Source: Desulfosarcina sp.
GTDB lineage: Bacteria > Desulfobacterota > Desulfobacteria > Desulfobacterales > Desulfosarcinaceae
Direction: 5' to 3'
Assembly: GCA_014237405.1 (NCBI GenBank)
Contig: JABZFO010000165.1
Coordinates: 1 to 43,819 of the forward strand
Length of the DNA stretch: 43,819 nucleotides
The notes below the pieces were generated by a model. That model searched no databases. It saw only the letters and a program-made list of their open reading frames with translations, and was not told where the DNA came from. Position numbers and translations under genes: made by a program. This document shows positions 8,605 through 43,023 of this stretch, piece after piece; the stretch's first letter is position 1, and each line of letters opens with the position of its first letter.

Positions 8605-8720
8605 TATTAGCGAACGAAAAATCGATTTTTAAAAAACATATAACAAACTACCCCAAAATCATTATTTTAAGCATTATAGCACCGGATTCTCTCCATTCAC
8701 TTGCGGTTTGCTTGATAAAC

Positions 8721-10244
8721 ATGGTTACGACGCATATCAACAACATGCTCGGTCGCATTCCCTTCCGCATTTTCCTGCCGGTGGTGCTGACGGTGCTGCT
8801 GTTCATCATGACGATCTTCCTGCTCATCCTGCCCATGGTGGAAGAGCGCCTCCTGGAGGGTAAGCGAGAGGTCATCCGCGAACTGGTGGCGTCGGCCTGG
8901 AGCAGCCTGGATGGCTACGTCCGGCAGGAACGCCAGGGAGTGCTGACGCGGACCGAGGCCCAGGCACTGGCCATGAACCACATCCGGGGGTTGAGGTACG
9001 GGCAGGATTTCAAGGACTATTTCTGGATCAACGACATGCAGCCGCGCATGATCATGCACCCCTACCGCCCGGACATGGAAGGAAAGGACATTTCCACCTT
9101 TGCGGATCCGGCGGGCAAGCGGCTTTTCGTGGTTTGCGTGGAGATCGTGCGGGCAAGCGGCGCCGGTTTTGTGGACTACCAGTGGCAGTGGATGGATGAC
9201 CCGACACGGATCGTACCCAAGATTTCATACGTCATGGGCTTCGACCCGTGGGGATGGGTCATCGGCACAGGCATCTACGTGGAGGACGTGCACGCCCAGA
9301 TTTCCGCCATCACCCGGAAACTCTCCCTCATCTGCATCTCGATCCTTTTTCTGATCATCGTTCTCTCCATCCACATCATCTGGCACGGCGTGAAGGTAAC
9401 CCGGGAAAAAAAGCTGGCCGAAGAAAAGGCACTGGTCAAACAGGAACAACTCTTTCAGGCTGCCAAGATGGTTTCCCTGGGCACCCTGGTTTCCGGTGTT
9501 GCCCATGAGATCAACAACCCCATCACCTCGGTCATGCTCAACGCGCCCAACCTCACCCGAATGTGGGAGGCGGTACTGCCCATCCTCGATCGCCACCATG
9601 CGCAGCACGGTGATTTCCAGGTGGGGGCTACCGTCTACAGTCGGATCCGCGACCGGGTGCCCCAGATGCTGGCCGGCATCACCGACGATGCCCGGCGGGT
9701 CCGGAATATTGTGGCAGACCTGAAAGACTTTGCCCGGGACAACCCCTCCGATATAAAGGATGATGTGGATTTGAACGAGGTGGTGAATAAGGCCGTGGGG
9801 CTGACCGCCAATCTGATTAAAAAATCCACGAAACACTTTATCCTGACTTGCCGTCCGGATCTGACAGGCTTTTTGGGAAACGCCCAGCGCATCGAACAGG
9901 TGGTCATCAACCTGGTGGTCAACGCCTGCCAGGCGCTGCCGGGTCCTGATCGGTCAGTGACCGTGGTCACCGGGTTCGAGGCGGAAAAGAATCAGATCCT
10001 TCTTGAAGTGAGGGATGAGGGCCAAGGCATCGACGCGGACGCGCTAAAGCGAATCACCGACCCCTTTTTTACCACCAAGCGAGAGCGGGGCGGCACCGGC
10101 CTCGGTCTGGCCATTTCCGATCGCATTGTGAGGGACCATGGCGGCACCATGACTTTTGAATCGACGCCGGGTAAGGGAACAACGGTCCGCGTGACGTTTC
10201 CTCTGGCTATCGAACCCCATCGAAGGGAGAAACGGGTATCTTAG
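8721..10244 (+). CDS. Cache-domain sensor histidine kinase
   Basis: Membrane sensor of about 507 residues. A first membrane helix (near 10-35) is followed by an extracytoplasmic single-Cache-like domain with FKDYFWINDMQPRMIMHPYR and FDPWGWVIGTGIYVEDV, typical of sensors of small organic acids. A second helix lies near 205-228. The kinase core has the phospho-acceptor His262 in VSGVAHEINNPITS, and an ATPase domain with DEGQGID, PFFTTK and GTGLGLAIS. The start is uncertain: ATG at 8721 is preceded by no clear ribosome site, and TTG at 8712 is also in frame. Its stop lies one base before the start of the response regulator, so the two are translationally coupled. Confidence 0.9.
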   Translation: MVTTHINNMLGRIPFRIFLPVVLTVLLFIMTIFLLILPMVEERLLEGKREVIRELVASAWSSLDGYVRQERQGVLTRTEAQALAMNHIRGLRYGQDFKDYFWINDMQPRMIMHPYRPDMEGKDISTFADPAGKRLFVVCVEIVRASGAGFVDYQWQWMDDPTRIVPKISYVMGFDPWGWVIGTGIYVEDVHAQISAITRKLSLICISILFLIIVLSIHIIWHGVKVTREKKLAEEKALVKQEQLFQAAKMVSLGTLVSGVAHEINNPITSVMLNAPNLTRMWEAVLPILDRHHAQHGDFQVGATVYSRIRDRVPQMLAGITDDARRVRNIVADLKDFARDNPSDIKDDVDLNEVVNKAVGLTANLIKKSTKHFILTCRPDLTGFLGNAQRIEQVVINLVVNACQALPGPDRSVTVVTGFEAEKNQILLEVRDEGQGIDADALKRITDPFFTTKRERGGTGLGLAISDRIVRDHGGTMTFESTPGKGTTVRVTFPLAIEPHRREKRVS

Positions 10245-10245
10245 C

Positions 10246-11667
10246 ATGAGCATTTCGTTGAACCCACCTCGGCCTATTATGATCGTGGATGATGAACCCT
10301 CCATCTTGCTGGCCATCGATACGACCCTGCAGATGGCCGGGTTGAGCAACACGATCACCTGCCAGGACAGCCGCCGGGTGATGGGCATACTGGCCGACAC
10401 CCCGATCGAGGCCATGCTGCTGGACCTGAACATGCCCAACGTAGACGGCCACAGGCTGTTGGACGATGTGCGACGGGAATACCCGGATGTGCCGGTGATC
10501 ATCGTCACCGGCGCCGTGGATGTGGAAACCGCAGTGCGGTGCATAAAAGCGGGGGCCTTCGACTACATCGTCAAGCCGGAGGAGGCGGAACGCCTGATCA
10601 CTGCCGTCAACCGGGCGGTCTCCTTTAACGAACTCAAGCGAGAGAACCAGTCTCTTCGCCGGCACATGCTTCACAACGACCTGGAAAATCCGGAGGCCTT
10701 TAGCCGCATCATCACCGGGAATAAAGAGATGCTGACCATTTTCCAGTATGTGGAATCCATCGCAACCACGTCTCAACCGGTTCTGATTCGGGGGAAAACC
10801 GGTGTCGGCAAAGAGTTGATCGCCCGGACGATCCACCAGTTGAGCGGCCTGAAGGGGGAGTTTGTGGCGGTTAACGCAGCAGGACTGGACGACACCGTGT
10901 TTTCAGACACCCTGTTTGGTCATGTAAAGGGTGCTTTTACCGGTGCCGACACCCCGCGCTGCGGATTGATCGAACAGGCCAGGGACGGAACCCTGTTCCT
11001 GGATGAAATCGGGGATCTGACACAAGCCTCCCAGGTGAAACTGCTGCGGCTGTTGCAGGAAGGCGAATACCTTCCTCTGGGATCCGACGAGCCTAAGTTG
11101 GCAAACGCCCGGATTATCGCCGCCACCAACCAGAATCTGGCCACGCTCCAGCAGACGGGAGGATTCAGGAAAGATCTCAACTATCGCCTGCGGACTCATC
11201 GCATATACATCCCTCCGCTGCGGGAGCGGTTGGATGATATCCCGCTGTTGCTGGCGCATTTTCTGGAAAATGCCGCGTCTCGGCTGGACAAGCCCACGCC
11301 GTCGGTGCCCAACGAACTGATTAGCCTGTTGAAAACCTATGGTTATCCCGGCAATGTCCGGGAGTTGGAGTCCATGATTTTCGATGCCGTGAGCCGTCAC
11401 CGGTCAGGGGTCCTCACTCTTGACTCGTTCAAATCCCACATTGCCAGGGAACAGTCGGCGGGTACGCCCTCACCGGCATCCCCGGATGCCGATGCCCATC
11501 TCCTGATCGCTTTTTCCGAAAAACTACCCACCATCAAGCAGGCCACCCGGCTTCTGGTTGAAGAGGCCATGCGCCGCAGCCACGGCAACCAGTCCGTGGC
11601 CGCTAGAATTCTGGGCATATCCCAACAGGCGCTGAGCAAACGCCTGAAAAAAAATGCCAATCTCTGA
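10246..11667 (+). CDS. sigma-54-dependent response regulator (NtrC type)
   Basis: A 473-residue transcription activator. Receiver domain: acidic pair Asp15-Asp16, phospho-acceptor Asp60 (LLDLNMPNVDG), Lys in VKPEE. AAA+ domain: Walker A GKTGVGKE near 183, the sigma-54 contact loop GAFTGA near 229, Walker B GTLFLDEIGD. Fis-type helix-turn-helix at the C-terminus (NQSVAARILGISQQALSKRL). The Walker A has Lys where Glu is common (GKTG rather than GETG). The kinase gene directly upstream is its partner, and two palindromes directly downstream are its likely binding sites, so it probably controls the small HisKA gene and MFS transporter that follow. Confidence 0.95.
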   Translation: MSISLNPPRPIMIVDDEPSILLAIDTTLQMAGLSNTITCQDSRRVMGILADTPIEAMLLDLNMPNVDGHRLLDDVRREYPDVPVIIVTGAVDVETAVRCIKAGAFDYIVKPEEAERLITAVNRAVSFNELKRENQSLRRHMLHNDLENPEAFSRIITGNKEMLTIFQYVESIATTSQPVLIRGKTGVGKELIARTIHQLSGLKGEFVAVNAAGLDDTVFSDTLFGHVKGAFTGADTPRCGLIEQARDGTLFLDEIGDLTQASQVKLLRLLQEGEYLPLGSDEPKLANARIIAATNQNLATLQQTGGFRKDLNYRLRTHRIYIPPLRERLDDIPLLLAHFLENAASRLDKPTPSVPNELISLLKTYGYPGNVRELESMIFDAVSRHRSGVLTLDSFKSHIAREQSAGTPSPASPDADAHLLIAFSEKLPTIKQATRLLVEEAMRRSHGNQSVAARILGISQQALSKRLKKNANL

Positions 11668-12295: not shown

Positions 12296-12364
12296 AAGAG
12301 ATTAAAAAAGATTTAAGAATAAGACATATTTAAAATGCAAACAAACATGCAAACGGAGAAAACC

Positions 12365-13693
12365 ATGAACGAGATCAAGAACAGAGGATGGAGCGTGACT
12401 ATGGCGGGCCTGGGGATCAACCTGGCGCTTGGAATCCTTTACACCTGGAGTATATTCAAACAGACCATCAAGGAATCGGTGATGGCCAAAGATGGCGTGT
12501 TTAACTGGGATATGGCCTCGCTCAACGATCCCTTTGCCGTCTGCTGCCTGATGTTTACGGTGGCCATGATCTTTGCCGGTCGGCTTCAGGATAAACTCAG
12601 CCCCCGCCTGACCGCCGTCATCGGCGGTATCCTCACCGGTGCCGGTCTCATCGTCATCTCCCAGTCCAACGCCCTGTTTGCCTGGATTCTGGGCTTCGGC
12701 GTCCTTACCGGTCTGGGCCTAGGATTTGGGTATGCCTCGGCCACGCCGCCGGCCATCAAATGGTTTCCATCTTCGAAAACAGGGATGATTGCCGGCATCG
12801 TCGTTGCCGGGTTCGGTTTAGCCTCCGTATACATCGCCCCGCTGGCCAATTTTCTCATCGCCAATTTCGGTCTCAGCCGATCCATGCTCATTTTCGGTGT
12901 CTCTTTTCTGGCGGTGGTCTGCATCCTGTCCATGTTTCTCGTCAACCCGCCGGACGGGTACGTCCCTGCAGACGCGGCACCCACGGCAGATGCCGCTGCT
13001 ATGCCGGCCACACCCGCCGCCGATTTTGCTCCTTTGCAGATGCTAAAAACCGCTGCGTTTTACAAGTTGTGGTTCATGTATTTCATCGGTGCGGGAGCGG
13101 CGCTGATCATCATCGGCGGCGTCGCCGGCATGGCCAAGAAGAGCATGGGCGATCTGGCCTGGATGGTCGTGGCGCTGATGGCCATTGGAAATGCCGGCGG
13201 CCGGATCGTGGCCGGGGTGATTTCCGACAAGATCGGCCGCACCAAAACCCTGCTGATCATGATGAGCTTGCAGTCCGCCATAATCTTTACCCTGCTGTTC
13301 ATCGGTGAGTCCGAAGCCCTCCTCCTGGTGGCGGCCGCCACCATGGTGGGATTCAACTACGGCACCAATCTTTCCTTGTTCCCATCGGTCACCAAAGACT
13401 ACTTCGGCCTTAAAAATTTTGGAATAAACTATGGCCTGCTATTTTCCGCCTGGGGGATCGGTGGTTTCATCTTCCCCCGAGTTTCACAGATGATCGTGGC
13501 CCGTACCGGCTCCCAGCACACCGCCTACCTCCTGTGCAGTATCCTGCTGGCAGCCGCCGCCATCCTCTCTCTCACTACCGAGGCACCTGGTGCGTCCGAA
13601 AGAAAACAAACGGTGTGGGGGCAGTTCATGGAGAAGATTGCATTCTCCAGTGCCCAGCCCGTCGACGTCTATCTGGGGTCCCGGCATCTTTGA
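12365..13693 (+). CDS. MFS transporter, OFA (oxalate/formate antiporter-like) family
   Basis: Inner-membrane carrier of about 442 residues with twelve predicted membrane helices. The N-terminus shows the OFA pattern (MAGLGINLALGILYTWSIF), then FAGRLQDKLSPR between helices 2 and 3, GYASATPPAIKWFP, and a second half beginning after an Ala/Pro-rich loop near residue 215. Members of the family move oxalate, formate or other small carboxylates; the substrate here is not evident. GGAG six bases before the ATG at 12365 favours that start over two in-frame ATGs upstream. The neighbouring Cache kinase and its regulator probably sense the same small acid and turn this gene on through the sigma-54 promoter. 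Confidence 0.88.
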   Translation: MNEIKNRGWSVTMAGLGINLALGILYTWSIFKQTIKESVMAKDGVFNWDMASLNDPFAVCCLMFTVAMIFAGRLQDKLSPRLTAVIGGILTGAGLIVISQSNALFAWILGFGVLTGLGLGFGYASATPPAIKWFPSSKTGMIAGIVVAGFGLASVYIAPLANFLIANFGLSRSMLIFGVSFLAVVCILSMFLVNPPDGYVPADAAPTADAAAMPATPAADFAPLQMLKTAAFYKLWFMYFIGAGAALIIIGGVAGMAKKSMGDLAWMVVALMAIGNAGGRIVAGVISDKIGRTKTLLIMMSLQSAIIFTLLFIGESEALLLVAAATMVGFNYGTNLSLFPSVTKDYFGLKNFGINYGLLFSAWGIGGFIFPRVSQMIVARTGSQHTAYLLCSILLAAAAILSLTTEAPGASERKQTVWGQFMEKIAFSSAQPVDVYLGSRHL

Positions 13694-13912: not shown

Positions 13913-14944
13913 TTATGGAGGACTGACAAGTTTTCTGTAAGGTACGCTATCGGTCCTTTGGGAGACAGTTATTCCCGAGTTATGCATTTTTTTATGAAAT
14001 AGCCGATCCCTGAAATCCGAGGGACTGTCCATATAAAGTCCCAACGCATCTTCAAACCCAAGATCACCCACCAGTCGGATGCCCTGAGCCCGGTATCGAT
14101 ACTGATGAAGTGACAGCGCCGATGCTTGCTCCCGGCTATTTAGATCCGGTATCTTCATATTGTAGCGGACGCCGTACCGCTTCAGCACACCTTTTACCAA
14201 GCCGCCCACCACCGACTCTTCAACGGCCATCCACTCCTCGGCCAGACGACGTGCTGTGGATAGATTCTCCGGCGGGTTTTCCTCCATCTCAGCAGCAATC
14301 TCCCGATCCGTAGCGGTTCCCAGATAATAGTGCAGGGTCTCTTCCACCGGGACCGACATGAGCGTATAAAGGTTTTTGGTGTCGTTCTGCCAGATGGTAA
14401 ACGGCTTGCGTTTCAATCCATAACGCCCCGGCTCCAACATCTCGATCTCCAGGTCAACCGCTCCCAGATGATTGGAAAATATAGCACCGTTGGCCTTGAA
14501 CTTTACACTGCGGCCAGATTCGGCGGTAAAACGGCATACGGCCTCATACTGTTTTGCCAGTCGGTGAACGAGAAACGCGGCAATACCGGTTTTTGGCAGC
14601 GGGGGATAGCTGACCTGAGGGCAGGTGATCGTTTCGTAAAAATTGTCCATCCGGTTCATTTCGAAAACGTAGTCGGTGATATCCCGGCAGTAACGGTGGT
14701 AGGCAGCGCTATGATTTTTCTCCAGTTGTGGAACAAACATCAGGCGAACCCGAAGCTGTTCCACCGACAGCTTTACTCGCTTTTCGAAACCGATTTTTTT
14801 CTTGAGCTGTGTTAACCAATCCTTTCGATGGCTCAGTTGCCGCTGGATGTGTCGCATCACCTCAGGGTCCGGGTCGTCAATAAAATCATGAAACACCAGC
14901 AAGGGGGCCGCCCGTCCCACCATTTGCGGGATGTGCGTGACCAT
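13913..14944 (-). CDS. protein of unknown function (343 aa)
   Basis: I do not recognise this gene. The protein is soluble, rich in charged residues, without signal peptide or membrane helices. It starts at an ATG (14944) with AGGA about nine bases before it; an in-frame TTG lies 18 nt upstream. Notable segments: VEETLHYYLG, followed some 40 residues later by EEWMAVEESVVGGLV, which gives a His/Glu pattern loosely like a metal site, and a basic N-terminal third (RKDWLTQLKKKIGFEKRVK). Codon use and length argue that it is real. It lies alone on the minus strand, convergent with the MFS gene and divergent from the sigma-54/leader module at 15148. Confidence 0.65.
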   Translation of the reverse strand: MVTHIPQMVGRAAPLLVFHDFIDDPDPEVMRHIQRQLSHRKDWLTQLKKKIGFEKRVKLSVEQLRVRLMFVPQLEKNHSAAYHRYCRDITDYVFEMNRMDNFYETITCPQVSYPPLPKTGIAAFLVHRLAKQYEAVCRFTAESGRSVKFKANGAIFSNHLGAVDLEIEMLEPGRYGLKRKPFTIWQNDTKNLYTLMSVPVEETLHYYLGTATDREIAAEMEENPPENLSTARRLAEEWMAVEESVVGGLVKGVLKRYGVRYNMKIPDLNSREQASALSLHQYRYRAQGIRLVGDLGFEDALGLYMDSPSDFRDRLFHKKMHNSGITVSQRTDSVPYRKLVSPP

Positions 14945-15147
14945 CTCCAAGTCTTCCTGCAAAGCTGCAGACGCTGTCCTTACCGGGTTCAGCAGCCATC
15001 CTGCGCTTCAGCAACTGGATTGTTCATCTATCGTTCATCTGTGCTTCGTTCTATCGTCTCTACATATCTATTTATCGGCACATTTATCTCTCTCCATGAG
15101 TCCAAAGACGGCTTCAATAGGTGGGCACACATGTAACATGCTATATA

Positions 15148-15405
15148 AATTAGCGATTTATAATAAGCTGCACCATAACAATGTTAACCTTCCTGTTTCC
15201 CCTACCGGTGCGCAAATTTGGGTATCCGGGTGCAATAAGTGAAACGATTGAAACGGCGAGTCTCCAATGAGAATATTTAATACATTTAATAATTCCAACA
15301 TGTTAGAAAGTTGGCATGCCCATTGCTTTTTCGTTTGGAAACAACACACCGTCGGTCGGTTCCGAAATGCTGAAGGTTCAGCAATGGGTGTGTTGGAAAG
15401 GAGGC
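15148..15405 (+). repeat. promoter/leader module, copy 1
   Basis: About 258 nt that recur at 42451-42709. The first ~115 nt differ at only two or so positions and contain TGCACC, CCGGTGCGCAA and CCGGGTGCAA words, candidate activator sites. A variable AT-rich spacer follows, then a sigma-54 promoter and a structured leader, again nearly identical. The conserved-variable-conserved pattern suggests selection on the enhancer, promoter and RNA rather than a recent copying event. Confidence 0.85.
15312..15327 (+). promoter_or_regulatory. sigma-54 promoter in module copy 1
   Basis: TGGCATGCCCATTGCT fits the -24/-12 consensus with five-base spacing. The predicted transcription start, near 15339, falls just before the structured leader. 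Confidence 0.82.
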
Positions 15406-15420
15406 AATTTCGCCTCCGCG
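15339..15420 (+). ncRNA. structured leader RNA
   Basis: A nine-bp stem (CAACACACC 15342-15350 with GGTGTGTTG 15387-15395) encloses TCGG-TT-CCGA and TGCTGAA/TTCAGCA hairpins. A further GGAGGC/GCCTCC hairpin follows (15400-15417). In copy 2 one base of the main stem changes from A-U to G-U, keeping the pair. It does not match the c-di-GMP (GEMM) riboswitch core or any other class I know. It may be a leader of the 58-residue peptide gene or an independent small RNA. Confidence 0.6.
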
Positions 15421-15425
15421 GGTAG
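15384..15425 (+). CDS. possible 13-residue leader peptide
   Basis: MGVLERRQFRLRG followed by a stop. GAAGG lies seven bases before the ATG, inside the TGCTGAA/TTCAGCA hairpin. Copy 2 encodes MGVLERRRF and then stops, so start, ribosome site and first seven residues are kept. This could simply follow from conservation of the RNA. Confidence 0.3.
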   Translation: MGVLERRQFRLRG

Positions 15426-15464
15426 AAAAGGGGTTATTATAACTTTTTTTAGGAGGTAATTACT

Positions 15465-15641
15465 ATGAAAAACGTTCAGAAAAACATCGTGATGGCAATT
15501 GTCGCCGCAATGCTCCTGGTTGTGGCCGGTGCCGGTCTGGCGATCGCAGAAGACAGCATTACCGGCACCATCACACAAAAGGGTGACGTGATCGTTCTTG
15601 ATTCCCATGGAGGAGGTAGCGAAATAGAAACTTCAAGTTAG
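15465..15641 (+). CDS. 58-residue exported peptide
   Basis: A very short gene with a strong ribosome site (AGGAGG, 15451-15456). The product has a Sec signal peptide (basic start, hydrophobic stretch AIVAAMLLVVAGAG, probable cleavage after LAIA) and a mature part of about 30 residues with the phrase EDSITGTITQKGDVIVLDS, then Gly-Gly-Gly and a polar end. No cysteines. It resembles the first strand pair of a small beta-barrel, but I do not recognise a family. It lies 126 nt downstream of the sigma-54 start site and behind the structured leader. The second copy of the module has no such gene after it. Confidence 0.7.
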   Translation: MKNVQKNIVMAIVAAMLLVVAGAGLAIAEDSITGTITQKGDVIVLDSHGGGSEIETSS

Positions 15642-15746
15642 CCCGTAGCCCCGACGTTCTCGAAAGTTCGGGGTTGCTGACCGAATGCAGTCGCCTGCAT
15701 CCTGGGAAGACCCCGGCCGGATGCAGGATCAGTTGGATCAAAGAAT

Positions 15747-15791
15747 AAAGGCAGGGAAGATTGCTGAAAGGCGGTTTTCCCTGCCTTTTTT
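15747..15791 (+). terminator. terminator after the small peptide gene
   Basis: Twelve-bp stem AAAGGCAGGGAA/TTCCCTGCCTTT followed by T residues. Between the gene and this site are two further hairpins: CCCCGA/TTCGGGG near 15649-15673, and CCTGCATCC/GGATGCAGG at 15694-15727. The 3' untranslated region is therefore highly structured. Confidence 0.8.
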
Positions 15792-15970
15792 AGTGCTATC
15801 CGGTTTTCCCGCATCGTCGACATCCGGGCCGACGATCTCTTCGAATCCGGATTCCTCGATCCGCAGTAGCCATTTTTCGCTGGAAGTGGTATATTTTGAA
15901 TTATGGGCTGCAATCGTGCCGCCCGGTCAAGGACCGTTTTTCACACCACGCGTTTCGATTTTAAAGCAAC

Positions 15971-39956: not shown

Positions 39957-40340
39957 TAGGAGCCGCCTTTGGGTTTGGCGACAGATAGGCGGCGTGCAGT
40001 CGTTCGATGTCGATGTGGTGCAGCAGATTAGTGAAACGCAGATCCTTGTCCCGCTTCGTTGCTTCTCGTACCCTGTTCAGTCTGATCGACGCTGCTTTCG
40101 GCCCCTGTGTGCCTGTCACACCTGAGATCTCCCGGTTTCCGTACAAAGAGTTTGCATACATGCTCCGGTTCTCTGACTCCGCGGGTCCGGGGCGCCACTC
40201 GCGTTAGCGCGACGTACCGTATTGCCTTCCCCACCAAGTCACAAGGTCGACAACCCGAATTAGGTGATTTCGGAGATCAATAGCCAGGCCTGAACGCCCC
40301 CTGTCAATGCTTCACCGCCCAGATAAACGGTACCTTGCAG
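39957..40340 (-). mobile_element. group II intron remnant
   Basis: On the minus strand, sequence resembling the late part of a group II intron RNA leads into the beginning of its reverse transcriptase. CTAATTCGGGTTGTCG, GGACCCGCGGAGTCAGAGAA and CCGGAGCATGTATGCAAAC are typical. The 3' side is cut off at 39957, and I cannot place the 5' end with certainty. Confidence 0.65.
39958..40161 (-). pseudogene. N-terminus of a group II intron reverse transcriptase
   Basis: 68 residues only: MYANSLYGNREISG at the start, then RDKDLRFTNLLHHIDIERLH and LSPNPKAAP, where intact proteins continue with GVDGVTW. The match stops exactly at that point. Catalytic, maturase and endonuclease parts are absent. Confidence 0.78.
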
Positions 40341-40469
40341 GCGTCAAGAGAAGATATCGCCAAGGGTCAACGGAAAGGAGATCCGAAATGGCGATAAGAC
40401 GGGCCTTGAAGCTGAGGCACCAGAGCGCTATTTAAGGGCCGCGGAAATAATAAATTACAGGAGGAACGT

Positions 40470-42450: not shown

Positions 42451-42709
42451 AATTAGAGATTTATAATAAGCTGCACCATAACAATGTTAACCTTCCTGCT
42501 TCCCCTACCGGTGCGCAAATTTGGGTATCCGGGTGCAATAAGTGAAACGATTGAAACGGCGAGTCTCCAATGATATAATTTGATAAATTTAATAATCCCA
42601 ATATGTTAAAAAGTTGGCATGCGCATTGCCATTTCGTATTGGAAACAACGCACCGTCGGTCGGTTCCGAAATGCTGAAGGTTCAGCAATGGGTGTGTTGG
42701 AAAGGAGGC
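42451..42709 (+). repeat. promoter/leader module, copy 2
   Basis: Near-identical to 15148-15405 in its enhancer-like first part and its leader, diverged in the spacer. No counterpart of the 58-residue peptide gene follows: 42718-43023 has no gene I can see. Region 42211-42450 before it is also empty. Confidence 0.85.
42615..42630 (+). promoter_or_regulatory. sigma-54 promoter in module copy 2
   Basis: TGGCATGCGCATTGCC keeps TGGCA, the five-base spacing and TTGC. Transcription would start near 42641. Confidence 0.72.
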
Positions 42710-42717: not shown

Positions 42718-43023
42718 GCCGCTGTGGGTGGGCGGCACTAAAGACCCTTTATAGATCCGTTACACTGGATCAAAAGGCGATGCCCGGAGCGGTTTTCACC
42801 ATTCAGACATTCGGGGATTTTATTGGGTTTCCTCCCCATCTGCATATCCTGATTTCCGATGGGTTTATATCAAATCATTAACAATTTGTTACCTGCCTGC
42901 GCTAATAGCCGAAGATCGAACTGCAAATTAGAAAGAATATCAAGCTTATAAAAGCTTATACCTATTTTTCGAGTGGACCGGCGGTGACACTTCCGATCGT
43001 AAAAAATATTGTTGAAAGGGGGG

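Follow-up and report, generated by a model that had tools for sequence, protein, structure and literature searches.

Translational leaders and riboswitches mask or free the Shine-Dalgarno site. The leader described here, from a 43,819-nt stretch of a Desulfosarcina genome (the window), resembles them in being a structured 5′ UTR between a promoter and a start codon, with a predicted multi-helix core that has conserved loops and with a hairpin that could act as alternative partner of the ribosome site. Unlike them, it has no match in Rfam, shows no significant covariation in its helices P1-P3, and has been found in one genus only. IS91/ISCR-type one-ended transposition carries neighbouring DNA along, and one of the two copies of our module abuts a fragment resembling a Y2 transposase, although this fragment scores below the Pfam cut-off. 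The small proteins encoded behind the leader in related genomes belong to DUF5818 (PF19135), whereas the window's ORF keeps only a signal peptide and the start of that domain.

The sigma-54 regulons of Desulfovibrio vulgaris depend mostly on response-regulator activators, and ncRNAs are among their listed targets in the part of the account considered here (PMC4641369). The Desulfosarcina locus, with a candidate response-regulator activator and an RNA, is similar in description, but its RNA leads into a coding gene in the relatives. We found no literature on DUF5818, on noncoding RNA in Desulfosarcina, or on Desulfosarcina sigma-54 together with small RNA; under Desulfosarcina and riboswitch nothing was found on this leader, the part of PMC12316311 considered here included. 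We conclude that the module is probably the control region and cis-acting 5′ leader of a sigma-54 unit that makes an exported DUF5818 protein of ∼93 residues in relatives where the gene is intact.

Two copies of one module

Exactly two copies of the module are present in the whole 4.9-Mb Desulfosarcina assembly, with 94% identity over 258 nt and start points separated by 27.3 kb (Table 1); chance similarity is rejected (E = 4e-111). There are 15 differences in 259 aligned columns: two of 121 in the enhancer block, eight of 41 in the spacer, one of 17 in the promoter core, three of 11 in the initial transcribed stretch, and one of 69 in the RNA. With region borders taken from the annotation, and hence not blind, the spacer and initial transcribed stretch differ at 11 of 52 columns versus four of 207 for enhancer, promoter, and RNA (P = 6e-6, Fisher's test). 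Set singly against the same 11 of 52, the RNA (P = 0.0004) and the enhancer (P = 0.00004) are each more conserved. The sole difference in the RNA, A15346 to G, lies opposite U15391 and turns an A-U pair into a G-U pair.

These results agree with the first-pass annotation of this DNA, which had described two loci 27 kb apart with ∼258 nt in common, a spacer that had diverged while enhancer, promoter, and RNA stem were held, and one stem pair changed from A-U to G-U. Its proposal of a sigma-54 enhancer, promoter, and RNA-leader module is likewise borne out: The parts are constrained between the copies, are conserved in relatives, and match no Rfam family. Random decay in stems and promoter, which it had named as the pattern that would speak against the proposal, is absent from the copies and from the relatives. 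A MITE-like mobile repeat would have many copies per genome; we find two in this genome and one leader match in each leader-bearing relative.

The copy 1 promoter has no mismatch to the TGGCAYR-N4-TTGC spacing in a scan, and the copy 2 promoter, on reading, has the −24 GG and −12 GC. In the whole genome, the enhancer pattern has two hits and no more, one in each copy; the reversed control has none.

Table 1. Positions of features in the window
Feature	Position	Strand	Remarks
sCache_2 histidine kinase	8712-10244	+	
Sigma-54 response regulator	10246-11667	+	candidate activator
MFS transporter	12335-13693	+	NCBIfam L-lactate MFS transporter, above cut-off
Divergent Tat-type gene	13913-15004	-	no Pfam family; twin-arginine region out of frame in window
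Copy 1 of duplicated module	15148-15405	+	
Enhancer core, copy 1	15208-15245	+	GTGCGCAAATTT...GGTGCAATAAGTGAAACG; 38-nt block
Sigma-54 promoter −24/−12, copy 1	15311-15326	+	TTGGCATGCCCATTGC; fits consensus
RNA core P1-P2-P3, copy 1	15342-15395	+	predicted three-way junction; loops UCGGUU (15356-15361) and AGGU (15374-15377)
P4 hairpin (predicted)	15400-15417	+	5′ arm Shine-Dalgarno-like; 3′ arm complementary to the real one
Shine-Dalgarno site of small ORF	15451-15456	+	AGGAGG
58-codon ORF	15465-15641	+	signal peptide and DUF5818 start, then out-of-frame tail
3′ UTR hairpin	15694-15727	+	GGGAAGGACCCCGACC-like loop; similar sequence in most loci of the genus
Intrinsic terminator of unit	15747-15791	+	present in relatives too
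ModE-like gene remnant	15798-15866	+	last 23 codons
Copy 2 of duplicated module	42451-42709	+	
Enhancer core, copy 2	42511-42548	+	
Sigma-54 promoter −24/−12, copy 2	42614-42629	+	TTGGCATGCGCATTGC; fits consensus
RNA core P1-P3, copy 2	42646-42699	+	one A-U to G-U change
Y2 (IS91-type) transposase-like piece	42726-42878	+	directly after copy 2; PF04986, E = 0.0014, 19.2 bits (cut-off 20.9)

The unit in related genomes

Seven other genomes of the genus (G012, G014, G018, G019, G021, G022, and G023) share one arrangement of the sigma-54 promoter with its leader, the DUF5818 gene, and the divergent Tat gene. A DUF5818-type gene stands opposite a divergent Tat-type gene in nine of the 13 genus genomes, the window's included (G000, G012, G014, G017, G018, G019, G021, G022, and G023), and promoter and leader lie between the two in all of these except G017. 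In G013, the kinase and the divergent gene are present with no adjoining leader or DUF5818 gene; in G015, G016, and G020 we found no match to either the DUF5818-type or the divergent Tat-type protein. The small exported protein of the relatives has ∼93 residues, and both of the two tested score above the PF19135 cut-off (E = 2e-7 and 5e-9).

Between the DUF5818 gene and the next gene or remnant there is a terminator, a strong hairpin followed by a T run, in all seven relatives inspected. Two dehydrogenase genes lie downstream of the unit in six relatives (G012, G017, G018, G019, G022, and G023); those of G018 are an L-glutamate gamma-semialdehyde dehydrogenase and an L-piperidine-6-carboxylate dehydrogenase, both above the NCBIfam cut-off. 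Because the terminator lies between, an operon with the dehydrogenases is unlikely, though read-through is possible. Genome G014 has only a shortened remnant of the second dehydrogenase downstream of its unit (L106, 10750-10980). A ModE-like gene comes next in several relatives, the G012 protein scoring under the cut-off of its domain model.

At the window locus, the first-pass annotation had copy 1 precede a tiny gene for an exported peptide. A 58-codon ORF with a signal peptide does follow, and to judge from its sequence it is a frameshifted remnant of the ∼93-residue DUF5818 gene, broken by an internal deletion of about 119 nt (reckoned from a 282-nt gene). Positions 15605-15627 resemble the last codons and stop of the relatives' genes, in another frame; the match exceeds 300 shuffles for G014, G018, and G021, and not for G012, G019, G022, and G023. 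No Pfam family, PF19135 included, matches the 58-residue product at E = 0.001. The assembly of the window genome is fragmented, with 201 contigs and 92% completeness, so that the deletion could be an artefact. Both dehydrogenase genes are missing from the window locus, and the second dehydrogenase has no close copy elsewhere in the assembly (best 28% identity). In the window genome, the leader and its switch are better preserved than the gene behind them.

The first-pass annotation had also suggested a search of related genomes for an RNA family outside the known classes, and a list of the genes downstream of all copies. The list gave the DUF5818 gene in seven relatives and the Y2-transposase-like piece after copy 2. 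The search recovered the leader in relatives within the genus and nothing above chance outside it, so that a broad family is unsupported. An RNA model (R1), run against 389 genomes of the order at E up to 0.1 with stricter filters, which lose weak matches, matched in 33: nine of the genus and 24 of other genera, the latter with E values of 0.002 to 0.1 and below the ∼39 expected by chance. The match in G015 (20.3 bits) lies in a coding stretch and looks like chance. Among 389 genomes of the class, a set overlapping that of the order, the model gave seven matches at E = 0.001, all in the genus. A pattern scan of GTDB contigs, which detects near-identical cores only, returned five stretches. Four belong to the group studied here (D. 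alkanivorans PL12, D. widdelii PP31, a Desulfosarcina MAG, and a Deltaproteobacteria MAG); the fifth, in Asanoa, was judged chance. The RNA core pattern has no occurrence in viral contigs and none in plasmids. With the model used, the leader thus appears so far in one genus.

The 38-nt enhancer block lies 61-64 nt from the promoter in all seven loci measured. Its core, at two mismatches or fewer (background 0.04 per 600 nt), is found upstream of all nine units of the genus and also of the units of G003, G005, and G011, which belong to another genus; five more matches, with a different layout, occur among 30 loci (G022b, G013, G023b, G003b, and G027). The kinase and sigma-54 regulator adjoin the unit in six genomes (the window's, G012, G018, G019, G022, and G023). 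Seven of the 13 genus genomes have the kinase, as judged from at most 50 scored candidates per genome, and a leader of at least 77 bits, a line chosen after the data were seen, is present in six of those seven versus none of the other six (P = 0.005, Fisher's test). Genome G014, whose unit has a leader of 47 bits, gave no kinase match at 1e-60, and G013 has the kinase and no leader. In the other genus, G003 and G011 carry a 79% identical kinase, and G005 has none at 1e-60. Because of the distribution of the enhancer pattern and the co-occurrence of kinase and leader, the neighbouring response regulator is likely the activator of the unit. The MFS transporter is present in the window, G018, and G019, and as a fragment in G017; it was not seen in the inspected stretches of G012, G014, G021, G022, and G023.

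Across the bacterial family, we examined 30 DUF5818-type loci drawn from 44 matches. A sigma-54 site (one mismatch at most) lies within 400 nt upstream in 24 of them, against a background of ∼0.03 per 400 nt, and in 16 of 21 when the nine loci of this unit are left out. A PF19135 search of 116 genomes of the order at E = 1e-6 found one, and was too strict to extend this link. With 24 of the 30 loci so placed, DUF5818-type exported small proteins in the bacterial family are usually behind sigma-54 promoters, which puts these uncharacterised proteins in a regulatory setting.

The RNA leader

The leader begins just after the predicted transcription start. The RNA folds with a z-score of −3.9 in copy 1 and −2.9 in copy 2 (200 dinucleotide shuffles). 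Over the six pairs formed by four kinase-bearing loci (G012, G018, G019, and G022), mean identity is 87.4% for P1-P3, 83.8% for the promoter, 71.8% for the enhancer, 70.7% for the coding sequence, 66.1% from P4 to the start codon, and 53.3% for the spacer. The means over all seven loci measured are 84.3% for P1-P3, 84.9% for the promoter, 73.5% for the enhancer, 62.1% from P4 to the start, and 53.7% for the spacer, with 70.9% for the coding sequence over six loci (the broken gene of the window left out). The locus thus offers a concrete case in which a structured leader, under an enhancer-dependent promoter, exceeds in conservation the protein encoded behind it. P1-P3 is poorly kept in G021 (23.6 bits), though the gene there is intact.

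The proposed P1-P3 bases can pair in 94.8% of alignment cells, a level reached by 29 of 500 shuffles, versus 26%-52% when the structure is slid along the alignment. Covariation above shuffles was not found in P1-P3: The score is matched or beaten by 424 of 500 shuffles, and only one pair is changed on both sides (261 of 500 as high). The P1-P3 structure therefore rests on conservation and folding energy.

P4 is predicted in copy 1 and in each of the seven relatives (all eight loci), with energies between −11.3 and −15.9 kcal/mol; no more than seven of 1000 mononucleotide shuffles reach the stability of the natural sequence. In G018, G014, and G021, both arms have changed in concert (register set by eye). 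For the 3′ arm paired instead with the real ribosome site, the predicted energies lie between −7.7 and −14.2 kcal/mol (−13.1 in G019), and when the full leader of G018 is folded, this alternative has the lowest energy. Such an alternative is almost automatic, because the P4 arm is Shine-Dalgarno-like. We do not claim a contact between the P2 loop and the 3′ UTR hairpin, which is weak in five of eight loci (25-51 of 500 shuffles as strong) and absent in three (243-331 of 500).

As in translational leaders, a predicted RNA structure is conserved within the 5′ UTR. We file it as a candidate structured (translational) leader only, because its core shows no covariation beyond shuffles. An Rfam search of positions 15100-15700, around copy 1, gave no match at E up to 5.

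Proposed working and alternative readings

In the scheme that we propose, the neighbouring Cache kinase and sigma-54 response regulator would act through the GTGCGCAAWTTT...GTGCAA enhancer, and the enhancer-bound regulator would fire the sigma-54 promoter ∼100 nt downstream. The first ∼60 nt of the transcript would fold as a three-way junction, P1-P3, with two conserved loops, followed by P4, whose 5′ arm would mimic the Shine-Dalgarno site and whose 3′ arm would be able to pair with the genuine site. On binding a ligand or a protein, P1-P3 might then decide whether P4 forms and the ribosome site stays free or the 3′ arm covers the real site; the transcription unit would end at its own terminator. 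In the window genome, the DUF5818 gene has suffered its frameshifting internal deletion, and a second copy of the control-plus-leader module stands beside the transposase-like fragment. A choice between P4 and ribosome-site pairing, controlled by P1-P3, is the most likely role that folding predictions let us propose for the leader, and we put it forward tentatively. The gene being broken while its leader was kept and copied, the locus is a natural experiment on whether leaders of this kind have an existence apart from their gene.

Copy 2 is flanked by a TPR gene and a gene for an M14 peptidase. Where the first-pass annotation had seen nothing recognisable after it, a piece resembling the start of the Y2 transposase domain follows at once, just under the Pfam cut-off; over 103 nt, its DNA matches another contig of the same genome (C183) at 76%. 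Its position suggests that a rolling-circle element may have carried the module to this site. The TPR gene is found in only two other genomes of the genus, and in an empty-site comparison its flank is not conserved there.

Both copies might then be relics, copy 1 decaying and copy 2 a fragment passively copied by an IS91-type rolling-circle element, with neither working in the window genome. The frameshifted ORF, the divergent gene without an in-frame Tat region, the loss of the two dehydrogenase genes, and the transposase-like fragment are all consistent with such a history. Copy 2 has, moreover, lost P4, inside which the similarity of the copies stops, and its spacer has a sigma-70-like site, TTGAAA-17-TATAAT, at 42551-42579 (11 of 12 to consensus), in a stretch with six promoter-like sites observed and 2.4 expected; in copy 1, GAATAT replaces the second box. 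However, the differences between the copies concentrate outside the functional parts, and we consider it rather doubtful that both are dead.

The P1-P3 RNA could instead be the selected product, acting on other transcripts or binding a protein, with the small protein secondary or dispensable. We retain this as an unlikely reading because no intact DUF5818 gene follows either copy, yet the RNA survives in both, and enhancer, promoter, and RNA, and the RNA by itself, have changed far less than the rest. P1-P3 is also more conserved than the coding sequence, and the listing of ncRNAs in D. vulgaris sigma-54 regulons, in the part of that account considered (PMC4641369), points the same way. However, in intact loci the RNA continues into a gene whose ribosome site is well placed, and the terminator comes after that gene. 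In each relative a single leader match was found, copy 2 may have arisen too recently for a verdict, and the divergence of the AT-rich spacer may reflect nothing more than a higher mutation rate. A stand-alone small RNA would have its own terminator directly after the RNA, and no plus-strand terminator is among the predicted sites after copy 2. It is similarly improbable that the transcript has a dual function under sigma-54 control, its three-way-junction RNA being selected as RNA, evolving more slowly than its protein, and having been duplicated after loss of the protein into an RNA-only pair.

A further possibility, that a protein binds the conserved P1-P3 stretch as a downstream DNA site and that no RNA fold is involved, would account for the near absence of covariation in P1-P3. 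It is very unlikely, given that P1-P3 starts directly downstream of the predicted start of transcription, that its pairing falls away when the structure is slid, and that the P4 arms, by eye, change together in three lineages.

Two further features were noted near copy 2. The only Rfam match in the whole window at the gathering cut-off is a group II intron (D1-D4-6, RF02005, 90.7 bits) on the minus strand at 40167-40359. Towards the end of the contig (43690-43819), the ORF of the M14 peptidase runs into short inverted repeats, CCGCACCC/GGGTGCGG and CCCCCC/GGGGGG, and is possibly interrupted.
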